From Synergistales bacterium (GTDB lineage: Bacteria > Synergistota > Synergistia > Synergistales > Aminiphilaceae): a stretch of DNA of 40,026 nucleotides. Positions 28,974-39,559 of the stretch are shown in pieces. Each line of letters opens with the position of its first letter. Position 1 is the stretch's first letter. The translations under genes and the position numbers were made by a program. The DNA is taken from NCBI GenBank assembly GCA_021736445.1, contig JAIPGA010000014.1, positions 1 to 40,026 of the forward strand, read 5' to 3'. A model generated the notes under the pieces. It was given only the letters and a program-made list of their open reading frames with translations, was not told the DNA's origin and ran no database searches.

Positions 28974-29588
28974 CTACAGCGACGGCCGCCAGTTGACGGC
29001 GAGGATGCGGGGGCTGCCGCCGGGGCGGAGGATGGTGACGCCGCCGTAGTCGAAGGTGAATGCGAAGAGCTGCCGCCAGGGGAGCTCCAGCAGATGCCGG
29101 AAGAGCACCCGCAGGACACCGGCGTGGGTGACGCAGCAGAGGGTCGTCGCTCCGGTGACGGCAAAGGCCTCCTCGATGGCGGGGGCGACCCGCCGCTGGA
29201 GATCCTCGAAACTCTCGCCCCCAGGCGGGTGGTGGGTGGCAAGCTCGCGGCCCCGTCGGTCGAACTCATCGGGGGCTTCGGCTTGGATCTCGCCGAAGCT
29301 CCGGCCCTCCCATTCGCCCAGGGAGATCTCCTGCAGCCCCGGAACGGTACGCCTTGCAAGGGAACGCCTGCGGCAGGCGGCGATGATCTCACCGGTTTCG
29401 TCGGCCCTGACGAGGCCGCTGGTGACCAGGGCGTCGAAGGGGATCCCCGCGAGGGCCCGGCCGGTCGCGGCGGCCTGGTTGCGGCCCTCTTCCGAGAGGG
29501 GGACGTCCTTCCGGCCGAGGTAGATCTTTGTTCCCCCGGGGATAACGGGACGGCCGTGGCGAACGAGATAGAGCAGACGGTCATCCAC
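28974..29588 (-). CDS. Histidine phosphatase family protein
   Basis: A 204-residue phosphoglycerate-mutase-like phosphatase. The catalytic RHG motif is in LLYLVRHGRPVIPGG at about residues 8-14. LSEEGRNQAAATGRAL and SGLVRADETGEIIA (second active-site arginine) follow, then the acid residue in LQEISLGEWEGRSF and the second histidine in CCVTHAGVLRVLFRHLL. Relatives include CobC, GpmB and ribazole-phosphate phosphatases. The start is GTG 29588, which overlaps the preceding gene by eight bases; the ribosome site is weak and coupling is likely. It is the last gene of the mod operon. A role in cofactor or nucleotide metabolism is inferred from context only. Confidence 0.85.
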   Translation of the reverse strand: MDDRLLYLVRHGRPVIPGGTKIYLGRKDVPLSEEGRNQAAATGRALAGIPFDALVTSGLVRADETGEIIAACRRRSLARRTVPGLQEISLGEWEGRSFGEIQAEAPDEFDRRGRELATHHPPGGESFEDLQRRVAPAIEEAFAVTGATTLCCVTHAGVLRVLFRHLLELPWRQLFAFTFDYGGVTILRPGGSPRILAVNWRPSL

Positions 29589-30708
29589 TGACGGCCACCA
29601 CATTCTGCGCCAGATCGCCCAGGGAGAGGCCGGTGCAGCGCCCCCACGCCTCGCGCACCTCCATGGCTTTCCCCATACGTCGGGCCACAGCGGTCTGGGC
29701 CTCGGCATTGCCGGCGAACTGCGCCTCTTTGGTTCTGGTACGCTCCTCCAGGGGGACATACTCCTCACCGCTCACCGTCTTGTCGGCCAGATAGAGCAGC
29801 TCCCGCTCGCCCGGCGGATCCAGGATAACGGGATCGGGCAGATCCATATGGTCGGCGACGATCCCCGCCAGTTTGGGGAATCCCTGTCGCGTGAGCAAGT
29901 CGGCGGCCGCCTCGCCGTGACGGCGCTCTCCCTTGGCCAGGTCGTGGAGACGGGCAGCCGCGCCGAGGTAGACCCGGTCCACGGGGTAGCCCTTCCCTTC
30001 AAGCGCAGCGGCCAGGGCGTCGGCCAGCGCGGCCACGGCTTCACTGTGGCGCCGCACCGCCTCCGCCGTTCCGGCGATCTCGAAAAGGGCCTCCTCCTCT
30101 TCCGGCGTAGGCAGTTCCCGGCCGGCGATGGCGGCCAGCTCTTCGTATTCCTCTGGGCGGTTCATCCCCACGTGGACCCCCACGTCGGCCACATCGACCA
30201 CCACAGTGCTGTCGTGGTAGTTCCGCAGAAGCCCGCGCAGACCGTCGTGGCCGTCCCACTCCAGGATGGGACCCACCAGCCGCCGGGAGATCCAGGGCGG
30301 GTGCCCCCGAACACTGCGGAAACGCGGGGAGACCACGTCGCAGTCACCCTGGGCGGCCCGCTCCATCACCAGACGGTAGCTGCTGCTCCGCGCCAGCGGC
30401 GTGTCCGAGGGCAGCAGCAGAAACCCCTCCACATCCTCGGGGAGTGCGGCGACCCCGGTCTGGACGGAGGAAAACATCCCCTCGGGATAGCGTTCGTTGT
30501 ATGCCGCGGCGCAGCCCAGGCGTTCCGCCACGGGTTCCACCGCTTCGCGCCAGTGGCCGGTGACGACAATGGTGTGGCTGACGCCGGCGGCCTCCAGCCG
30601 ACGCTGGGCGAACTCCAGGGCGGGGAGACCGGCCAGCGGCAGGAGGGACTTGCAGCGCCCCATGCGGGAGGCGTAGCCGGCGGCGAGGATCACGGCTGCT
30701 GTCTTCAT
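29581..30708 (-). CDS. MobA-like nucleotidyltransferase fused to HD domain
   Basis: A 375-residue two-domain protein. Residues about 1-195 are a MobA/MocA-type NTP transferase: VILAAGYASRMGRCKSLLPL is the nucleotide-binding loop, and LLLPSDTPLA and GHPPWISRR are the metal and cofactor loops. Residues about 215-340 form an HD phosphohydrolase domain with LHDLAKGERRHGEAAADLL (HD pair) and IVADHMDLPDP. MocA enzymes attach CMP to molybdopterin for aldehyde oxidoreductases, so this is the probable cofactor-finishing enzyme for Mop. What the HD domain does is unknown. The start ATG 30708 is nine bases after AAGGAG. Similar MobA-HD fusions occur in Desulfovibrio. Confidence 0.87.
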   Translation of the reverse strand: MKTAAVILAAGYASRMGRCKSLLPLAGLPALEFAQRRLEAAGVSHTIVVTGHWREAVEPVAERLGCAAAYNERYPEGMFSSVQTGVAALPEDVEGFLLLPSDTPLARSSSYRLVMERAAQGDCDVVSPRFRSVRGHPPWISRRLVGPILEWDGHDGLRGLLRNYHDSTVVVDVADVGVHVGMNRPEEYEELAAIAGRELPTPEEEEALFEIAGTAEAVRRHSEAVAALADALAAALEGKGYPVDRVYLGAAARLHDLAKGERRHGEAAADLLTRQGFPKLAGIVADHMDLPDPVILDPPGERELLYLADKTVSGEEYVPLEERTRTKEAQFAGNAEAQTAVARRMGKAMEVREAWGRCTGLSLGDLAQNVVAVSG

Positions 30709-30712
30709 CTGC

Positions 30713-31138
30713 TCACGCTCCTTCGTCCTCTATTTTCGCACATTCCCGGCAGAGGCCGTAGACCACCAGCTGCTTGCCGCGGACCCTGGCCCCCCTGGGA
30801 ACCTCCACGTAGGGCAGCGACTGGCTGGTGAGGCACTCCATCCTGCCGCAGCCTGTGCAGAGAAAGTGGGGATGGTCGCCGGGGCAGCCCTTCTGAGAGG
30901 GTCGGTGGGCACAGAAGTGCCAGGCGCCGTCCATGCCCTGCACCTGGTGGACCAGGCCGGCCTCTTCCAGGGCGTAGAGGGTGCGGTAGAGGGTGACCTT
31001 GTCCATCTCCTCCATGCCGGGACAGGCACGGATCTGGGGGTTGGTCAGCGGCCGCCCGGCCCGGTAGAGCACGCGGAGCACCGCTTCGCGGGCCTCGGTG
31101 GGCCGGAGGCCGAAACGCTTCAGGATCGCGGTCTCCAT
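30713..31138 (-). CDS. Fur-family metalloregulator
   Basis: A 141-residue Fur/Zur/PerR-family repressor. The N-terminal winged helix shows LRPTEAREAVLRVLYRAGRPL and VTLYRTLYALEEAGLVHQV (recognition helix). The dimerisation domain has HPHFLCTGCGRMECL and GLCRECAKIE, the two CxxC pairs that bind structural zinc. The classical Fur regulatory segment is altered by an insertion-like PSQKGCPGD before the HPHF motif. It is encoded within the modABC/cofactor operon, four bases before the MobA-HD gene. Fur proteins bind 7-1-7 palindromes, and two such sites lie on the modA promoter. This makes it the likely local regulator. Its effector is unknown. Confidence 0.88.
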   Translation of the reverse strand: METAILKRFGLRPTEAREAVLRVLYRAGRPLTNPQIRACPGMEEMDKVTLYRTLYALEEAGLVHQVQGMDGAWHFCAHRPSQKGCPGDHPHFLCTGCGRMECLTSQSLPYVEVPRGARVRGKQLVVYGLCRECAKIEDEGA

Positions 31139-31144
31139 GGCAGA

Positions 31145-32194
31145 TCAGGAGCGGGCGGCGAAGCTGCAGGCCGGGTAGATGCAGGCGCTACAGCGGCGGC
31201 AGAGCCCCCCGACACCCCAGCGGCGCACGTCGGCCTCGTTGGGACGTCGTCCGGCGAAGAGCTGGTCCAGCAGGAGGTCCAGGGTGGTCCGTTCGTCGTG
31301 GACCACACAGGCCGGCGCCCCCACCACGGCGGTCTGTCCCGCGGTACCAAGCATCAGCATGGAGCCCGGCAGCGACGGCACCCCCTGGAAGGCGATGTCG
31401 CTGCAGACACTCCGGATGGCGCCGGGTGTCCTGTCGTTCACGTCCACGCTCATGCCGCCTGTGCAGACCACCAGCTCGGCCCCCGTCGCGACGAAACCCC
31501 GGATGGCGTCGGCCACGGCGGCTTCGTCGTCGGTGACGATCTCCCGGCCCAGGAGCCGGGCGCCCTAGTAGTCAAGCTTGCGCTCCAGCCTGGGGCGGAA
31601 GGCGTCTTCCACCCGGCCCTCGGCGAGCTCCCGGCCGGTGGTGACCAGGCCCGTTTTGAGGGGCAGGAAGGGCTGCACGCCGATGGGCTCCGCCAGGGCC
31701 TCGGCGGCGGCGACGTGCTCCTCGGTGGTCCAGAGCGGCCGGATACGGAAGGAGGCCACCACCTCACCCTGTTCGACGGGGATATGGGGCGGCAGGGTGG
31801 CCACGATCCATTCGCTGTCGGCGTTGATGGCGTGGACCATCTCGGCGTCGAACGCAAGAAGACCGCGGTGCTCCGCACGGAGGGAGCATTTCCCCTCGCC
31901 GGGACCCTCGCAGTCCACGCCGACGCCGGTGAGCCCGGCGGCCAGACGGAGGGCGGCGTCGTCCTCGTGGACCTCCCCTTCGTCCAGATGGAGGATGGCG
32001 AGGTGCTCCCTGCCCATGGAGCGCAGGGTCTCCAGATCCTCTTCTTTCACCACGTAGCCCTTTTTGAACCGGGGGCCCTTGTAGTGGGTCGCCGGGATAA
32101 CCTGGGTGAGGTCGTGGGCCAGCGGATGCCCCACGGCCTCCTCCAGCGCCAGGATCTCCTGTTTCGATTGTACCTTCTGGAGGGTCTCACTCAT
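31145..32194 (-). pseudogene. Molybdopterin-binding-domain protein interrupted by TAG
   Basis: One frame encodes a 349-residue protein broken by a single in-frame TAG at 31567-31565. The first part (from ATG 32194, about 209 codons) reads MSETLQKVQSKQEILALEEA, then GHPLAHDLTQVIPATHYKGP and VGVDCEGPGEGKCSLRAEH. The second part begins GARLLGREIVTDDEAAV and contains the MoaB/MogA-type signature VVCTGGMSVDVNDRTPGAI, then PGSMLMLG, GAPACVVHDERTTLDLLL and a cysteine-rich end (GGLCRRCSACIYPAC). The frame on both sides is intact, so only one codon is affected. Such proteins occur with selenium- or molybdenum-dependent hydroxylases and probably handle the cofactor. The codon could be a nonsense mutation, a sequencing error or read through. 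No strong start is seen for the second part. Confidence 0.8.
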
Positions 32195-32343: not shown

Positions 32344-33528
32344 TCATTGTCGCCTGGCATGGACGGTTTCCGCAGGCCTCCCCATGCCACCGCCCTCCTC
32401 CGTATCTTCCTGTCCGCTTCCTCCAAGGTCATCACGGGCACTCCCCCGCCGGTCCAGCACGGTGACATCCCGGCAGCGGAAGGCCATGAGCACCCGAGCT
32501 CCCTCGCCGGTTTCCATGTTCCGGTAGGAGTTGCCCGGGTATTCCACGTGCCAGTGGATCCCGGCCCCTTCCACGGTCAGCCGGACGGTGCTGCCCATGT
32601 CGAGGCGCTCCACCACAGTGCCTTCCACCACGTTGGGCGCCAGCGTGGGGTCCACCTGCACGCCGGGGTAGAGCAGCTTGATGTCGTGGGGCGCGATGAA
32701 GGCCAGTCGCTCCCCACGCTCGCGCACCGCCGGAGCGAGACGGAAGGCGCGGTCCTTCCAGCGCAGCGCCGGGCCGCCGGGGGTGTCGATAACCTCGCCC
32801 TCCAGCAGATTGCCCCACTGCAAAGCCTGCCAGACTGTGTCCTGGGCCTCGCCCCGCCAGAGCGATTCGACAGGCAGCGATCCCGAGAGTGTGCCCTCCC
32901 GGAGAAAGAAGATCCGGTCCCCCAGGGCGCAGACATCCTCGATCTGATGGGTCACGTAGAGCATGGGCACCCCCGTCTCCCGGTGGAGCTCCTTGAGGGT
33001 GCGCCGCAGACTCCGCCGCAGCGGTCCGTCCAGGGCGCTGAAGGGCTCGTCCAGTAGAAGGAGCGCCGGTTCGGCCGCCAGCGCCCGGGCCAGGGCCACT
33101 CTCTGCTGCTGCCCGCCGGAGAGCTCGCCTGGGTACCGGCCTTCCATCCCCTGGAGGTGGAGCCTGTGAAGCCAGCGATCCGCCTGTCCCAGCGCCGATG
33201 CGCGGCTGACGCCACGCAATCCGTAGGCCACGTTCTGTCGGGCCGTCATGTGCGGGAAGAGCGCCAGCTCCTGGAAGACCAGCCCGATCCCCCGCCGCGA
33301 CGGGTGGAGTGCCACGCCTCCATCGCTGTCGTGGAGCGTCGCGCCGCCGAGGACCACCCTGCCGCGTCTGGGCCTGCCCAGACCGGCGAGCAGTCGAAGG
33401 GTCAGACTCTTGCCGGATCCGCTGGGGCCGAAGAGGATGCCGATCTCCCGGTCCATGGCGAGATCCACAGCGAGACGGAACCCGCCGAGTTCGTGGTAGA
33501 GCGAGGCCTCAAGCCAGCTGTCTGCCAT
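32344..33528 (-). CDS. modC: Molybdate ABC transporter ATP-binding protein
   Basis: A 394-residue ATPase. Motifs are FGPSGSGKSLTLR (Walker A), VFQELALFPHMT (Q-loop), LSGGQQQR, ALLLLDEPFSALD (Walker B) and YVTHQIEDV (switch histidine). The C-terminal part (about 230-365) holds a Mop/TOBE-like regulatory domain (NVVEGTVVERLDMGSTVRLTVEGAG) that binds oxyanions in ModC. The tail of about 30 residues is polar and unusual. It overlaps modB by 20 bases. About 150 bases separate it from the next gene, with a CACCTGC-C-GCAGGTG dyad (32328-32342) just beyond its stop. Sulfate or tungstate importers are close relatives; the cofactor genes around it favour molybdate. Confidence 0.88.
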   Translation of the reverse strand: MADSWLEASLYHELGGFRLAVDLAMDREIGILFGPSGSGKSLTLRLLAGLGRPRRGRVVLGGATLHDSDGGVALHPSRRGIGLVFQELALFPHMTARQNVAYGLRGVSRASALGQADRWLHRLHLQGMEGRYPGELSGGQQQRVALARALAAEPALLLLDEPFSALDGPLRRSLRRTLKELHRETGVPMLYVTHQIEDVCALGDRIFFLREGTLSGSLPVESLWRGEAQDTVWQALQWGNLLEGEVIDTPGGPALRWKDRAFRLAPAVRERGERLAFIAPHDIKLLYPGVQVDPTLAPNVVEGTVVERLDMGSTVRLTVEGAGIHWHVEYPGNSYRNMETGEGARVLMAFRCRDVTVLDRRGSARDDLGGSGQEDTEEGGGMGRPAETVHARRQ

Positions 33529-34156
33529 AGCCGCCTCCTTCCAGGGAACGCACCAGCGCCAGCGCCGCCACGGCGGCCACCGTCAAAACCAGCGCCGCCA
33601 GGTTGGCGGCGGCGAACTCCAGCGCCTCCACCTGGCTGAAGATATAGAGCGGCAGCGTCTGGGTCCGCCCCGGGATGTTGCCCGCCAGCATGAGGGTGAC
33701 GCCGAAATCCCCCAGCGCCCGGGCCGAGGCCAGCGCCACGCCGGCGGCCAGTGAGCGGCGGCTGAGACGGAGGGTCACCTTCCGGAAGACGGCGAACTCG
33801 CCGTCGCCCAGGGTACGGGCGGCGCCCCCCACCTCGCCGGGCACAGCAGCGAAACCGACGCGGGCGCTCTGGACCATCAGCGGCAGCGAGGGCACCAGTG
33901 CGGCCAGTGCGGCCGCCGGAAAGGAGAAGACAAAGCCCAGCTCCTGCAAAAGCGGCAGATGCCCGAAGAGCATCAGCAGGTAGAGCCCCAGCACGGCCGG
34001 GGGGAGCGCCACGGGGAGCAGCACCAGAAAGGAGAGCAGTCTGCGCCCCGGGAACTCCCGCTTGGCCAGCACCCAGCCGATGGCCGTCCCGAGAACCAGC
34101 AGCAGCGGCACGTCAACGGCGAGCACCTTGAGGCTCACCAGCAGGGCGGAGGTCAT
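33509..34156 (-). CDS. modB: Molybdate ABC transporter permease
   Basis: A 215-residue inner-membrane permease with five hydrophobic segments, the size and topology of ModB. ARTLGDGEFAVFRKVTLRLSRRSL is the EAA loop that contacts ModC. GDFGVTLMLAGNIPGRTQTLPLYIF is a ModB signature. Its ATG overlaps the modA stop by one base (TGATG), and its 3' end overlaps modC by 20 bases, so all three are translationally coupled. Confidence 0.92.
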   Translation of the reverse strand: MTSALLVSLKVLAVDVPLLLVLGTAIGWVLAKREFPGRRLLSFLVLLPVALPPAVLGLYLLMLFGHLPLLQELGFVFSFPAAALAALVPSLPLMVQSARVGFAAVPGEVGGAARTLGDGEFAVFRKVTLRLSRRSLAAGVALASARALGDFGVTLMLAGNIPGRTQTLPLYIFSQVEALEFAAANLAALVLTVAAVAALALVRSLEGGGYGRQLA

Positions 34157-34884
34157 CAGCGCTCCAGCGGGAGCAGGCCCATTGACCGCCAGGTGGCGTC
34201 TTCTGCGGGTTGCCGGCAGAATTCCCAGAAGGCCCTGGCGCTGGGTCCCGCATCCGGAGCCAGGCCGCCAACCTGTGGTGTGGTCATCCCCTCAAGCACC
34301 AGCATGGCGCCCCCCACCTTCTGTGCTGCGCTCCGGGGCACAAAGGCCAGATCGGCGGCGCCGTGGCGCACGGCCATCACCGCCTGGGGCGCACCGCCGA
34401 CAAAGGCGGTCCGCTCCGTATCACCGTACCGCACCCATTCGCCGCGCTCCTGAAGGTACTGCTTGGCCAGCAGGCCGTAGGCGGTGCTGTCGGGCTCCGG
34501 AATGGCCACCACGGCATCCGGCGCGGGAGGCCAGCTCGGCGGCGCTTCCCCCTCCGCCATGAGCACCAGCTGCCCCCGGGCGAAGGGGGCCACATCCACC
34601 AAGAGGCCCTGTTCCTCCATCCAGCCCGGCCAGCGGGGCTCCGAGAGCAGCACGATGTCGAAGGGAGCACCGGATTTCATCTGCCGGGCCAGCGCCCCGC
34701 AGGGGCCTTTGACCAGATCGAAGGGTTCGCCTCCCTGGTCAACGAAGTCGTCGATGACGGCCTCCACGGCCGGCGCGATCCCCGCCGCCACGGCCATGAC
34801 CTCCGCATTGGCCTGCCGGACAGGAAACACCATCAATAGAAGAAAACAGAGAAGAGCGAGAGAAAACAGAGACAGTTTGTTCAC
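34156..34884 (-). CDS. modA: Molybdate-binding periplasmic protein
   Basis: A 242-residue oxyanion receptor. The start is GTG 34884, seven bases after AAGGA, giving a signal peptide (MNKLSLFSLALLCFLLLMVF then QANAEV). The mature domain has the ModA layout: MAVAAGIAPAVEAVIDDF, GPCGALARQMKSGAPFDIVLLS (serine/alanine oxyanion loop; the usual SSG is replaced by GPCG), PDSTAYGLLAKQYLQ and GAADLAFVPRSAAQ. At roughly 220 mature residues it is of normal size. It is the first gene of the molybdenum operon. The longer upstream frame to 35112 has no ribosome site and would lack a signal peptide at its start. Confidence 0.87.
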   Translation of the reverse strand: MNKLSLFSLALLCFLLLMVFPVRQANAEVMAVAAGIAPAVEAVIDDFVDQGGEPFDLVKGPCGALARQMKSGAPFDIVLLSEPRWPGWMEEQGLLVDVAPFARGQLVLMAEGEAPPSWPPAPDAVVAIPEPDSTAYGLLAKQYLQERGEWVRYGDTERTAFVGGAPQAVMAVRHGAADLAFVPRSAAQKVGGAMLVLEGMTTPQVGGLAPDAGPSARAFWEFCRQPAEDATWRSMGLLPLER

Positions 34885-35035: not shown

Positions 35036-35088
35036 TGCAACCGGGTTGCAGTATACGCAACAACATCCCGACATGCAACCGAGTTGCA
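35036..35088 (-). promoter_or_regulatory. modA promoter with two 7-1-7 operators
   Basis: TTGCAT (35078-35073), exactly 17 bases, TATACT (35055-35050) form a good sigma-70 promoter. TGCAACC-G-GGTTGCA (35036-35050) is a perfect 7-1-7 palindrome over the start region. TGCAACCGAGTTGCA (35074-35088) is a near copy over the -35, with centres 38 bases apart. Both overlap promoter elements, so a bound dimer would repress. The Fur-family product of this operon is the obvious candidate. Confidence 0.75.
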
Positions 35089-35268: not shown

Positions 35269-35613
35269 TTACCTGGCGCCTCTCTCCAACAAATGGACAC
35301 ACTCTTCTTCCAGGAGATCAAGTTTGTTTTGCACAACATCCCAGACAATCTCAACGTTGACCCCAAAGTATTCATGGGCCAACACGTTTCTGAATGCCTT
35401 GATTTTGCGCCATTCCACCTCTGTCCCCGATCCGTCCGAAGGGGCAGGGACATGACGGGCCGCTTCTCCGATAACCTCAAGATTTCTGACCACCGCATCC
35501 TGGGTCTTCCTGTCAGCGGAAAAGCCCGACTGGTCCATTCCCTCTACATACGAACGAATCCGCTGTATGGCCTCCAGGATATCGTCAATATAGAGCAGGT
35601 AATCCCTAGGCAT
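35269..35613 (-). CDS. hepT: HEPN-domain toxin (HepT/DUF86)
   Basis: A 114-residue all-helical HEPN protein. The catalytic/toxic motif R-x(4-6)-H is RNVLAHEYFGV at about residues 75-85, with the tyrosine that is the AMPylation target in HepT of Shewanella. YLLYIDDILEAIQRIRSYVEG and VVRNLEVIGEAARHVP are the typical first and middle helices. HepT is an RNase-type toxin neutralised by its MntA partner through AMP transfer. It overlaps mntA by eight bases. The pair lies between the mod operon and the cupin gene. Confidence 0.92.
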   Translation of the reverse strand: MPRDYLLYIDDILEAIQRIRSYVEGMDQSGFSADRKTQDAVVRNLEVIGEAARHVPAPSDGSGTEVEWRKIKAFRNVLAHEYFGVNVEIVWDVVQNKLDLLEEECVHLLERGAR

Positions 35614-35896
35614 AGGCCACCTCGGATTCTATGATCGGTTTCAGTCGAGGTTTGACGGAATCCCGGAGCACGAGATCGACAGGGGAGCCGAAGATATCTT
35701 CAAGATAGAACTTCAGGTCCATATAGGCGTCGAAAGAGGGCCGCTCCAGCTCGACTAGAATGTCGATGTCGCTCTCCGGGCCGGCTGTCCCACGGAGCAC
35801 CGACCCAAAGAGGCCTATCCGCCGTACGGAGAAGCGCTCCCGCAACTCCTGCTTATGTTCTTTGAGGTACAGCAATAGGACATCGGCGTTCTGCAT
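35606..35896 (-). CDS. mntA: MntA-type minimal nucleotidyltransferase antitoxin
   Basis: A 96-residue nucleotidyltransferase. The catalytic motif GSVLRGTAGPESDIDILVEL (GSxxRG...SDIDxxV) is at about 31-50. FDAYMDLKFYLEDIFGSPVDLV supplies the third acidic residue (VDLV). The start ATG 35896 is five bases after GGAGG and gives the usual family length; the frame extends upstream. It transfers AMP to the HepT tyrosine to block toxicity. A TACAAT at 35951-35946 is a possible -10. Confidence 0.9.
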   Translation of the reverse strand: MQNADVLLLYLKEHKQELRERFSVRRIGLFGSVLRGTAGPESDIDILVELERPSFDAYMDLKFYLEDIFGSPVDLVLRDSVKPRLKPIIESEVAYA

Positions 35897-35984
35897 CTCG
35901 ACCTCCGCGTCATGGAGCATTCCAACCGCCTTCGGTACCATATGTATTGTACGCCCTACGGCTCTCCGACTCCACCTGCGGCAA

Positions 35985-36416
35985 CTACGCCCCGGCGCTG
36001 CGGCGCTTGTCCACGCGGTAGCGGGCCATCTTCCCGTGGGGGTCGCCCTCGCAGGGGACAATACAGAGGAAGCTCCAGGGATCGTCGCCCAGATTGTCGT
36101 AGGCGTGGGGCGCGTGGGGCGGCACGTGGGCCCAGGAGTCCGCCGGGAGGTCCCGGGGTTCCCCGTCGATCACCACCTGGCCGTGGCCGTGCAGGGAGAT
36201 GAGGTAGTGCGGCCAGTGGTGCCCGTGGGTGTCGATATGCGCCCTTGGGGGCAGGGTGAAGAAGCGCACCACGTAGTCCTCGAAGAAGCGGTCGGGGCCG
36301 AAGACGATACGTTTCTCCGTCCCCCCGCCCAGCGACTGGGAGTCCTTCAGCGGCAGATCGGCGATCCGTCCCGCCAGCTGCGGCTGTCCTTCTGCTTCCC
36401 TCGTCTTCTCGTCCAT
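35985..36416 (-). CDS. Cupin-domain protein
   Basis: A 143-residue single-cupin protein. The first cupin motif is HIDTHGHHWPHYLISLHGHGQVVIDGE (short core THGHHWPHYL with three histidines for the metal and the later glutamate), and the second is PPHAPHAYDNLGDDPWSFLCI. The start ATG 36416 is seven bases after GGAGG. Single cupins bind small ligands or a metal and may be enzymes, sensors or storage proteins, so no function is assigned. It lies between mop and the toxin-antitoxin pair on the same strand, with a GC-rich hairpin after mop. Confidence 0.82.
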   Translation of the reverse strand: MDEKTREAEGQPQLAGRIADLPLKDSQSLGGGTEKRIVFGPDRFFEDYVVRFFTLPPRAHIDTHGHHWPHYLISLHGHGQVVIDGEPRDLPADSWAHVPPHAPHAYDNLGDDPWSFLCIVPCEGDPHGKMARYRVDKRRSAGA

Positions 36417-36484
36417 AAACCTTCCTCCCTTCCCTGTCAAAGCTCTCCGGCGGCGGGCTCCCGAAGGATGACGCCCACACCGGC

Positions 36485-36525: not shown

Positions 36526-39312
36526 CTACGCCTTGTTCTTCAGCGCCTCAAGCACGCGCTGCGGTGTGGCCGGGATGGTGCGCACCCTGGCGCCGCAGGC
36601 GTTGTAGATCCCGTTGAGCACTGCGGGGTGCGGCGCGGACATGGGCAGCTCGCCGGTGCCGGAAGCGCCGAAGGGCCCGAATTCCCTGGGGGTCTCCATG
36701 TGGATCAGCTTGATGTCGTCGGGGATGTCCTCGATGAAGGGCAACCCGCAGGTGATCAGGTTGGTGTACTTCTTGGGATCCAGGAAATCCTCGGTGAGGG
36801 CGAAGCCGATGCCCTGAGCGATGCCGCCGTAGAGCTGGCCCTCGACGACAGCAAAGTTGTTGATCTTGCCCACGTCGCTCACCAGGGTGAAGCGCTCCAC
36901 ACTGGTCTTGCCGGTGGTCACGTCCACGGCCACCTCGGCCATGAAGACCCCGTACATGTGGTTGGCGAAGGGATAGCCCTGGCCGGTCTCGTCGTCCATA
37001 CCGGTGCAGTGCTGGACCTCGCCGTCGTTGTTGCGGATGGTGGCGGTCCATTCCCCGGTGTAGTAGGTGGGGATGCCCTCGGCGACCATCTCGTCGTAGG
37101 TGCGGTAGCCGCCGTCGTCCCTGCGCATGGCGTCCAGCAACTTGTTGCAGCTCTCGACGATGGCGTTGCCCACCATGTGCTGGCAACGGCTCGCCGCCGC
37201 CGCGCCGCTGTTGGGCGCCTTGGCGGTGTCGTTGCAGACCAGCTTGATCTGCCCGGGCTTGATGCCGATCTCCTTCAGCGCCTCGTGGGCGGTGCCCACG
37301 CAGCCCATGTCGGCGCCCTGGCCGTGGTCCTCCCAGGTGTTGTAGATGGTGACGCCTTCGGGCGTGAGTTCGATATCGCTCTGGGCGTTGTCGGGGCCGT
37401 CGTCGTTGGAGTTGTAGATCCCGATGGCAACCCCCACGCCGCGCTTCACCGTGTCGGTGGAGTTGGCTGCAGCGCGCTTTTTGGCCTGCTCGTAGAGCGG
37501 CCGGATCCTGCGGATCATGGTGGGCAGCGGATACACCTCAGGCCGCTGGCCGCTGGGCATGGTGTCCCCGGGCTGCATGATGTTCAGCTCGCGGAAGTCC
37601 AGCGGATCCATGCCGACCTTCCCGGCCAGTTCGTCCACGGCTACCTCCGAGGCCAGATAGGTCTGGGGCGCGCCGTAGGCCCGGAATGCCCCGCACCACT
37701 TCTGGTTGGTGAAGAGCGTGTACCCGGCGCCCTCCAGGTTGTCCAGGCCGTAGGGGGCGAGGAAGAACTGGCCGCCCTTGTTGGTCAGGTCCTGGCTGGA
37801 TTCAGAGTAGGGGCCGTGGTCCACATACCAGACCGGCTTGGCGGCTGTCATCCTGCCCTTCTCGTCGGCGCCGATCTTGACGTTGAAGAGGAAGGGCGAG
37901 CGCTTGGGCGTGCGGATGATGTGCTCCTTCATGTCGAAACGCATGTAGACCGGCCGGCCGGTGGCGACGACGCAGGCGCCGATGTAGTGCTCGTTGGTGA
38001 CGGCCACCTTGTAGCCGAAGGAGGCCCCCATGTTGTTCTCGATGATGCGGATCCTGGAAGGCGCCACCCCGAGGCCCCGGGCGATCATCATCTGATGGCG
38101 GTAGACGCAGATGCTCTTGCTCTGGATGGTGAGCCGGCCCTCGTCGTCGTAGTAGCCGAAGCCGCAGTCCGTCTCGATGGTGAGGTGGGGCTGGCGGGAG
38201 CTGTAGTAGCTCTCCTCCACGACATGGGCGGCCTTGTCCAGCAGCTTGTCTACGTTATCGCCCTTCCTGACGGGGCGCTTGTTGAAGGCGTTCCTGACGC
38301 CCTCAAGGTCCTCGATCTCGTCGTAGACCCGGGGGGCGTTGGGATTCATGGCCGATTCCACGTCAAGGAGCGGCTCCAGCTCTTCGAGATCCACCTCCAC
38401 CGCCGCGGCGGCCTGGCGGGCGTGCTCCTCGGAATCGGCGCAGACGATGGCCACGGCCTCGCCCCACTGGCGGATCTTGTCGTCGGCGATGATGCGCCGC
38501 TCCCAGCCGTCGGTGGTGCAGGTGGCGGATCCCACCTGGCCGCGGATTCGGTTGGTGCCCTTGTTGGCCCTGATATCGTCGGCGGTGACCACCTTGGCCA
38601 CACCGGGCATCCTCTCCGCTTCGGCGTAGTCCACCTTGAGGATCCTGGCGTGGTGGGTCTCGGGACAGACCGGCACGGCCCAGAGGGCGTTGTCGGGCAG
38701 CTTCTGCGCCACGTCGTCGCCGAAGTCCCAGGTGCCTGTCGCCTTGGCTACGGCGCTGGGACGGGGATAGGAGGTCCCCCAGACGGCGCCATCCTTGCCC
38801 AGCGTTTCGGAGAAGTCGGTCATCTCGGCCTCGCCGCGGAGCACCTTGGCCGCTTCCATGACGGCATCCACGATCTGCACGTATCCGGTGCAGCGGCAGG
38901 CGTTGCGGTTCTTCTGGAACCAGGTGCGCACGTCCTCCCTGGTGGGGGAAGGGTTCTCGTCGAGCAACGCCTTGGCGCTCATGATGAAGCCCGGCGTACA
39001 GAATCCGCACTGGATGGCGCCGAACTTGACGAAGGCCCACTGCAGGGCGTGGAGCTTGCCCGGGGCGCCGACGCCTTCGATGGTCATGATCTGGGCATCC
39101 TCGGGCACCTTTTCCCACTTGATGATGCAGGAACGCACCAGCTTCCCGTCCATCAGAACGCTGCAGGCCCCGCACTGTCCCACTTCACAGCCGATCTTGG
39201 TGCCCAGCAGTCCGAGCTGCTCCCGCAGGATCCTGGCCAGGTTCGTTCCCGCATCGGCGATGACGTCCTGGCGTTGCCCGTTGACCACAATGTGTTTCTT
39301 GAGATACTGCAT
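36526..39312 (-). CDS. mop: Molybdenum aldehyde oxidoreductase (Mop type)
   Basis: A 928-residue xanthine-oxidase-family enzyme, collinear with Desulfovibrio gigas aldehyde oxidoreductase (907 residues). The first [2Fe-2S] site is C42, C47, C50 (CEVGQCGAC) and C62. The second is C102, C105 (QCGFC) and C139, C141 (NACRC). The molybdenum domain starts near residue 185 (YPRPSAVAKATGTWDFGDD). Further blocks are AFRAYGAPQTYLASE, EDHGQGADMGCVGTAHEAL and GASGTGELPMSAPHP with the catalytic base E888. There is no FAD domain, as in D. gigas Mop, so electrons would leave to a ferredoxin or flavodoxin. It oxidises aldehydes to acids in the cytoplasm and needs the cytosine-dinucleotide cofactor. A riboswitch and terminator lie in its leader. 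Confidence 0.93.
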   Translation of the reverse strand: MQYLKKHIVVNGQRQDVIADAGTNLARILREQLGLLGTKIGCEVGQCGACSVLMDGKLVRSCIIKWEKVPEDAQIMTIEGVGAPGKLHALQWAFVKFGAIQCGFCTPGFIMSAKALLDENPSPTREDVRTWFQKNRNACRCTGYVQIVDAVMEAAKVLRGEAEMTDFSETLGKDGAVWGTSYPRPSAVAKATGTWDFGDDVAQKLPDNALWAVPVCPETHHARILKVDYAEAERMPGVAKVVTADDIRANKGTNRIRGQVGSATCTTDGWERRIIADDKIRQWGEAVAIVCADSEEHARQAAAAVEVDLEELEPLLDVESAMNPNAPRVYDEIEDLEGVRNAFNKRPVRKGDNVDKLLDKAAHVVEESYYSSRQPHLTIETDCGFGYYDDEGRLTIQSKSICVYRHQMMIARGLGVAPSRIRIIENNMGASFGYKVAVTNEHYIGACVVATGRPVYMRFDMKEHIIRTPKRSPFLFNVKIGADEKGRMTAAKPVWYVDHGPYSESSQDLTNKGGQFFLAPYGLDNLEGAGYTLFTNQKWCGAFRAYGAPQTYLASEVAVDELAGKVGMDPLDFRELNIMQPGDTMPSGQRPEVYPLPTMIRRIRPLYEQAKKRAAANSTDTVKRGVGVAIGIYNSNDDGPDNAQSDIELTPEGVTIYNTWEDHGQGADMGCVGTAHEALKEIGIKPGQIKLVCNDTAKAPNSGAAAASRCQHMVGNAIVESCNKLLDAMRRDDGGYRTYDEMVAEGIPTYYTGEWTATIRNNDGEVQHCTGMDDETGQGYPFANHMYGVFMAEVAVDVTTGKTSVERFTLVSDVGKINNFAVVEGQLYGGIAQGIGFALTEDFLDPKKYTNLITCGLPFIEDIPDDIKLIHMETPREFGPFGASGTGELPMSAPHPAVLNGIYNACGARVRTIPATPQRVLEALKNKA

Positions 39313-39386: not shown

Positions 39387-39442
39387 CATCTCTTTCAGCA
39401 ACCAGCTACGGCACGGCACGCCTGCTGTTGCCTACTACGCTC

Positions 39443-39539
39443 CTCCTTTCCAAACACGGGAGGCCGCCCCGTTTCCGGAACAACCCTATCGGCCGAACAA
39501 CCCTGGATCACGACAATCTGTAGGTCCCTCAGCTCGGAG
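39443..39539 (-). promoter_or_regulatory. Molybdenum-cofactor (Moco) riboswitch aptamer
   Basis: The message-sense segment 39464-39445 reads GGCCTCCCGTGTTTGGAAAG. It matches the conserved 3' part of the E. coli moaA Moco RNA (GCCUCCCGUAUCUGGAAAGG, recalled). CTCC at 39539-39536 can pair with GGAG at 39446-39443 as the closing stem. ACGGG and CCCGT flank an inner hairpin. The fit with a terminator just downstream and a cofactor-dependent enzyme supports the call. The 5' half is matched less certainly, and a tungsten-cofactor variant is possible. Confidence 0.7.
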
Positions 39540-39559
39540 GCTCTATGCAATTTGTGCTT

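Follow-up and report, generated by a model that had tools for sequence, protein, structure and literature searches.

The molybdate uptake genes of this Synergistales bacterium are preceded by a promoter carrying two palindromes, and the locus raises the question of which protein reads them and to what signal it responds. ModE, a molybdate-responsive repressor of modABC, is the textbook molybdate regulator. The sequence-only reading of the analyzed 40,026-nucleotide stretch of DNA (hereafter, the window) proposed a different candidate, a Fur-family protein encoded in the same operon, here designated FurX. Known regulators of the Fur family respond to Fe, Zn, Mn, Ni, heme, or peroxide. No Fur-family regulator of Mo genes was found in our search of the published literature, which had most subscription papers outside its reach. 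The comparison of genomes presented here suggests, with a probability of about 0.77, that FurX is a Zur-derived repressor of the Fur superfamily dedicated to a Mo/W regulon.

Gene neighborhood and the modA promoter

The minus-strand run consists of modA, modB, modC, a MoeA-like gene, furX, a gene for a DVU_1551-type NTP transferase/HD protein, and a histidine phosphatase gene, in this order (Table 1). The Fur-family protein of the operon is encoded by the fifth gene of the run downstream of the promoter, in agreement with the sequence-only reading. The in-frame TAG in the MoeA-like gene appears likelier to be a nonsense change or an assembly error than recoding, since the position is occupied by Phe, Leu, Tyr, or a similar residue in relatives. 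The MoeA-like proteins of the window (31145-31200, minus strand) and of relatives share a conserved C-terminal tail of the CxxCxxCxYPxCxFA type that resembles a site for a metal or an Fe-S cluster. A HepT/MNT-type toxin-antitoxin-like pair (HepT/nucleotidyltransferase; 35269-35911, minus strand) separates the AOR-cupin genes from the modA promoter; in relatives, unlike in the window, the AOR, cupin, and furX/modA genes are contiguous. Besides FurX, this genome encodes two Fur-family proteins, one PerR-like and one a further Fur at a contig end (L156/L157, where both labels are a reading of the sequences), which brings the total to three. Three RF01055 copies are present in the genome beyond that of the window.

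Table 1. Coordinates of the features of the window, all given as positions of the 40,026-nucleotide stretch
Feature	Position	Strand	Details
Histidine phosphatase, last gene of the run	28974..29768	-	PF00300 1e-48; start codon uncertain
DVU_1551 family NTP transferase + HD (MocA-like cofactor maturation)	29581..30708	-	NF045665 2e-107
furX, Fur-superfamily regulator, proposed box binder	30713..31138	-	PF01475 35.5 bits; curated cut-off 23.1
MoeA-like molybdopterin-binding protein, Cys4 tail	31145..32194	-	Interrupted by in-frame TAG at 31565-31567
modC ATPase	32344..33528	-	TIGR02142 7e-65, below cut-off
modB permease	33509..34156	-	TIGR02141 7e-51, just below cut-off
modA-like molybdate/tungstate binding protein	34156..34884	-	GTG start at 34884; TIGR01256 1e-13, below cut-off; Pfam SBP_bac_11
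Putative FurX box O2	35036..35050	-	TGCAACCGGGTTGCA as given for 35036-35050; TGCAACCCGGTTGCA on the minus strand; centered on the predicted transcription start
Predicted sigma-70 type promoter TTGCAT-17-TATACT	35050..35078	-	-35 at 35078-35073; -10 at 35055-35050
Putative FurX box O1	35074..35088	-	TGCAACCGAGTTGCA as given for 35074-35088; TGCAACTCGGTTGCA on the minus strand; contains the -35 hexamer
Cupin protein, aldehyde oxidoreductase partner in relatives	35985..36440	-	PF07883
Molybdopterin-dependent aldehyde oxidoreductase (AOR)	36526..39312	-	NF045668 1427 bits
Moco/Tuco riboswitch aptamer upstream of AOR	39427..39551	-	RF01055 72.7 bits, E 2e-16

Both palindromes were found where the sequence-only reading had placed them, straddling a well-formed modA promoter that is indeed present on the minus strand. 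Its description of them as twin 7-1-7 operators holds in part: both are inverted repeats, but the conserved core of the box is 6-3-6 (TGCAAC-N3-GTTGCA), and a perfect 7-1-7 is seen at the 35036 site alone. The minus strand of the promoter region reads ...TGCAACTCGGTTGCATGTCGGGATGTTGTTGCGTATACTGCAACCCGGTTGCA..., the -35 hexamer being the 3' part of O1 and the -10 hexamer, after a spacer of 17, sharing one base with O2. The center of O2 (35043) coincides with the transcription start predicted from the consensus match, and the centers of O1 and O2 are 38 bp apart.

The exact box, TGCAACNNNGTTGCA, occurs twice in the 2.45-Mb genome, both times in the modA promoter, while the reversed control motif has no exact site in the whole genome. 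Under a first-order Markov model of the window, 0.10 exact sites would be expected in a genome. Elsewhere in this genome, sites with one or two mismatches are near background, and no further FurX targets can be distinguished among them. This near-background level of two-mismatch versions would be expected of chance palindromes, but the probability of that explanation is negligible: two sites are located 38 bp apart in one promoter against 0.10 expected, and the identical box is found upstream of modA in many genera. Chance was therefore excluded.

Co-occurrence of the box and FurX in Synergistota

The survey covered 188 Synergistota genomes, in which FurX orthologs were counted by hand at E below about 1e-18. 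Orthologs were present in 81 genomes and the exact box in 61. The motif tracks the Fur ortholog across the 188 genomes: FurX is encoded in 54 of the 61 genomes with the box, compared with 27 of the 127 box-free genomes (Fisher p=4e-19). No association with FurX was found for the reversed motif in the same 188 genomes (p=1). Synergistota dominate the counts, and a genus-level test, which removes phylogenetic non-independence in part, gave a box by FurX table of 29/7/2/25 for 63 genera (p=4e-9).

Seven genomes contain the box and lack FurX. Five of them have FurX-bearing genus-mates and may lack furX because of an assembly gap. The other two are G124, whose assembly is 71% complete, and G140, in which a divergent Fur gene (L202) adjoins the box. 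Conversely, 27 genomes encode FurX and lack the exact box, a count that weighs against FurX as the regulator. Fur orthologs devoid of the motif would have spoken against a link between the two; the observed pattern favors it, as the orthologs without an exact box often have a box with one or two mismatches before the equivalent genes. Boxes with zero to two mismatches were found near mod, moeA-like, furX, and AOR genes 40 times, versus 0 for the reversed control.

In most of the fetched loci, furX adjoins a MoeA-like gene, and in many it is clustered with genes for ModABC, the NTPase, AOR, and the cupin protein. In a Spirochaetales locus (L220), furX is located beside tupABC-moeA-moaA. An identical moeA-like promoter region was observed in loci L106 and L171, which come from genomes of different families (G024 and G018); contamination or recent transfer is possible.

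The boxes could alternatively belong to an unrelated regulator, for example, of the GntR or two-component type, with FurX merely traveling with the Mo cluster. Such a regulator would account for the many genomes in which exact boxes are located on another contig or far from furX, and a response regulator gene does adjoin some of the boxes. We consider this explanation highly improbable in view of the co-occurrence of the box and FurX across the 63 genera, the presence of the box near the genes of Planctomycetes and Bacteroidetes Furs that share the D[KR]VT[LI]YR helix, and the assignment of the box to a Fur-family protein by Rodionov et al. (PMC545781). A response regulator gene, in some cases with a histidine-kinase-like gene, recurs near FurX boxes and mod genes (L178, L179, L181, L192-L195); these genes possibly represent a Mo-linked two-component system.

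Predicted target genes and promoter geometry

Targets were assigned to 78 box sites by similarity to the window proteins and by inspection. About 60 of the sites precede modA, moeA-like, furX, Mo-hydroxylase/AOR, or XDH genes, including about 30 at AOR, 18 at modA, 8 at furX (one divergent), 3 at moeA-like genes, and 1 at a three-subunit Mo hydroxylase. Further targets were L-glutamate-gamma-semialdehyde dehydrogenase (eight sites) and an SsuA/NMT1-type transporter (one site), and about nine sites were unclear. With sites mainly before mod, moeA-like, furX, and Mo-hydroxylase genes, the motif does not track another regulator. The composition of the predicted FurX regulon fits genes for Mo/W uptake, the cofactor, and Mo enzymes.

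The box before L-glutamate-gamma-semialdehyde dehydrogenase was seen in eight genomes (L187, L188, L196, L200, L203, L204, L205, and L215). One of these enzymes was tested and matched TIGR01236, and two of the genes are located directly downstream of a mod cluster (L196 and L200). To our knowledge, this dehydrogenase has no link to Mo, and the eight sites at an enzyme that is not a Mo enzyme speak against a regulator dedicated to Mo/W.

The sequence logo of 76 distinct sites shows A/T-rich symmetric flanks outside the fixed core. Three arrangements of the box and the promoter were distinguished by consensus matches, which are not mapped starts. In about ten modA/furX promoters, the TTGCA(T/A) of the box serves as the -35 element and the -10 element is located at +32/33, as in the window. 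In other promoters (moeA-like, several P5CDH and modA), the -10 element is just upstream of the box, which thus covers the predicted start. Where the box abuts a riboswitch at AOR, the best promoter is upstream of the box. All three predicted arrangements are those of a repressor.

Moco riboswitch and the absence of ModE

At 23 of the about 30 AOR sites, an RF01055 aptamer starts on the gene side of the box, at most 110 bp away. Eight of these sites have a gap of 79-109 bp; in the other 15, the first few bases of the annotated RNA fall within the box. No adjacent riboswitch was found at any modA site scanned. Because of the gaps at the eight AOR sites and the scanned modA sites without a riboswitch, the box was rejected as a part of the riboswitch. 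The Moco riboswitch itself is a known element (PMC2408646). It controls the kinds of genes that the FurX box also precedes and occurs both in the window and near the box at the 23 AOR sites, but it acts at the RNA level in response to the cofactor, and the modA promoter has no such RNA. Control of modA by a riboswitch was also ruled out, since the modA leader has no Rfam match and the Moco RNA of the window serves AOR. The box-riboswitch tandem independently supports the assignment of the box to a Mo regulon. In an Acetomicrobium-group genome, the FurX box of the AOR gene has been separated naturally from its Moco riboswitch by a transposase-like gene (L164:1823-4009).

The failure to see ModE in the window extends further: the TIGR00637 DNA-binding model had no match in this genome and none above the cut-off in all 188 Synergistota genomes. 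ModE was therefore ruled out as the regulator, and FurX matches Fur models only. Like ModE, FurX is encoded with Mo genes and is predicted to repress transcription from an operator that covers the modA promoter, but it belongs to an unrelated protein family, has another operator, and lacks the Mop/TOBE molybdate-binding domain. TunR and ModE-like regulators, which we take to be an alternative means of controlling Mo/W transport in sulfate reducers, resemble FurX in providing such control in anaerobes; they differ in protein family and in the box, CGGTCACG-N14-CGTGACCG. The Desulfovibrio ModE box is given in PMC545781.

Relationship of FurX to zinc regulators

FurX belongs to the Fur superfamily according to its PF01475 score (Table 1). 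The structure model (pLDDT 95) confirmed the fold, and Foldseek matched it to PerR, Fur, and Zur structures. The structural zinc site is formed by two CxxC pairs, of which C94, C97, and C133 are invariant and C130 is present in at least 90% of the sequences. A FurX dimer is predicted to bind a 7-1-7-like inverted repeat.

FurX-like proteins of Spirochaetales, deltaproteobacterial, and myxobacterial MAGs have about 47-60% identity to FurX, and those of Planctomycetes, Bacteroidetes, and Myxococcus about 30-45%. The latter relatives have in common the signature HxHFxCxxCGxxxCL and the helix D[KR]VT[LI]YR, and many of them also have the box near their own gene. In the phylogenetic tree, the FurX rows, most of them with Mo neighbors, form one clade with 95% SH-aLRT, and the zinc-type relatives fall outside; the inner order is unsure owing to the short alignment and several long branches. 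FurX is thereby placed as a sister to Zur-like proteins that are predicted to use TGCAACNNNGTTGCA.

Rodionov et al. (2004, PMC545781) had predicted this box, given as ATGCAACNNNGTTGCAT, to be that of Zur in Desulfovibrio. A deltaproteobacterial relative (L263), located with znuABC and three boxes, agrees with that prediction. Since the motif had already been published in this role, it marks a Zur-related clade, and the novelty is the link to Mo genes. Desulfovibrio Zur_D, the predicted zinc regulator, and FurX both belong to the Fur superfamily and have an identical box core, and both the VTLYR helix and the HxHFxCxxCGxxxCL signature of FurX are also present in the znuABC-linked relative L263. 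They differ in that the predicted targets of FurX are mod, moeA-like, AOR, and furX genes rather than znuABC, the CPG[ND]H segment and GKQ are found in FurX, and Synergistota keep a separate Zur.

Evidence for this separate Zur was obtained from the zinc uptake loci. ZnuA is encoded in 149 of the 188 Synergistota genomes and was not found in the genome of the window. Comparison of coordinates showed that in about 20 of these 149 genomes, another Fur paralog, about 26-36% identical to FurX, adjoins znuA; its recognition helix is DLATVYRT or similar versus D[KR]VTLYRTL in FurX. No FurX box was present at the 18 zur-znuA loci where the paralog aligned. In four Acetomicrobium-group loci (L328-L331), the palindrome TGCAAATNATTTGCA, which is likely the Zur box of Synergistota, is located just upstream of the zur gene beside znuA. 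Acetomicrobium hydrogeniformans (G015) encodes FurX, with boxes at modA and at AOR with its Moco RNA, plus zur-znuA with its own palindrome. The separate Zur beside znuA rules out FurX as the only Zur of the phylum.

FurX could still be a zinc sensor, with FurX-Zn repressing modABC and Mo-hydroxylase genes. Its box equals the published Desulfovibrio Zur box, a member of the wider clade is found at znuABC with three boxes (L263), and its His/Cys sensor residues resemble those of Zur, including H89, H91, and C102, the sensor ligands of the TGCAAC clade. Linkage to or control of zinc uptake, which characterizes Zur, is not observed, as the genome of the window is without ZnuA and has both its boxes at modA, and the boxes of the phylum precede Mo genes. 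Besides the znuA-linked paralog with its different helix and palindrome and the box-free zur-znuA loci, the FurX-specific residues C85, K122, and Q123 argue against zinc sensing, being missing in the zinc-type relatives. We therefore regard zinc as a rather unlikely signal.

Sensor site and proposed mechanism

Besides the structural CxxC pairs, H64, C76, H78, C85, H89, H91, C102, and K122-Q123 are invariant or nearly so in FurX. FurX differs from the zinc-type relatives in having C85 (in CPG[ND]H) and GKQ, whereas C102, H89, and H91 are common to both, so that CPG[ND]H...GKQ represents its own signature. We assume that residues of FurX correspond to the ligands of E. coli Zur. The putative sensor site is altered relative to the zinc-type relatives, without pointing to a ligand.

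Genome comparison supports the box, the regulon, the co-distribution of FurX and the box, the FurX clade, the absence of ModE, and the separate Zur. That FurX physically binds the box, that it represses, and which signal it senses are inferred in the following scheme. A FurX dimer with a co-repressor would bind TGCAACNNNGTTGCA. By covering the -35 element and the start site at O1 and O2, FurX would shut off modABC-moeA-furX-NTPase and thus its own gene too. Loss of the signal, most likely upon a shortage of Mo or W, would derepress the operon. In relatives, the box would also guard Mo-hydroxylase genes, often just before the Moco riboswitch, providing a DNA-level and an RNA-level gate. The earlier proposal that a Fur paralog controls molybdate uptake and cofactor genes is thus supported by the co-distribution and by the predicted target genes.

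Mo/W status is our leading candidate for the signal. As a tentative extension, FurX may directly sense Mo or W (as an oxyanion, a thio-form, or the cofactor) via a remodeled Zur site comprising C76, C85, H89, H91, C102, and K122-Q123; it would then be the first Fur-family Mo sensor, replacing ModE in the phylum and acting in series with the Moco riboswitch. The resemblance of its sensor ligands to those of zinc sensors speaks against a Mo/W-dedicated FurX, and the location of FurX boxes at both Mo uptake and Mo enzyme genes against a sensor that turns genes off when Mo is sufficient. Mo sensing could be reconciled with joint repression of uptake and enzyme in only two cases: the riboswitch determines the final output, or FurX responds to demand (substrate, redox) rather than to supply. 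For this reason, zinc sensing and thiol sensing were kept as rivals.

In the case of thiol sensing, FurX would respond to aldehyde or redox stress: modification of its Cys-rich site would release the DNA and turn on AOR, Mo supply, and glutamate-semialdehyde dehydrogenase. The boxes in repressing positions at uptake, Mo enzyme, and aldehyde dehydrogenase genes are consistent with this, as is the invariance or near-invariance of C85, C76, and C102. We find it unlikely, since the spirochaetal L220 cluster consists of tungstate uptake and cofactor synthesis genes with no aldehyde oxidoreductase in view, cysteines of the Fur family usually bind zinc, and no aldehyde-specific signature is known.

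Implications for the Fur family and Synergistota

A Zur-related branch of the Fur family appears to be a switch for Mo uptake and Mo-enzyme genes across Synergistota; its box was known before from Desulfovibrio, and its link to Mo genes is new. If true, a branch dedicated to Mo/W would bring a metal imported in oxyanion form into the range of the Fur family. It would explain how molybdate uptake is controlled in a phylum of anaerobic bacteria without ModE, and it would show that a zinc sensor was redirected while its DNA box was kept. The Fur-type operator and the Moco riboswitch on one promoter would constitute a two-layer control that is directly testable in the cultured Acetomicrobium hydrogeniformans.
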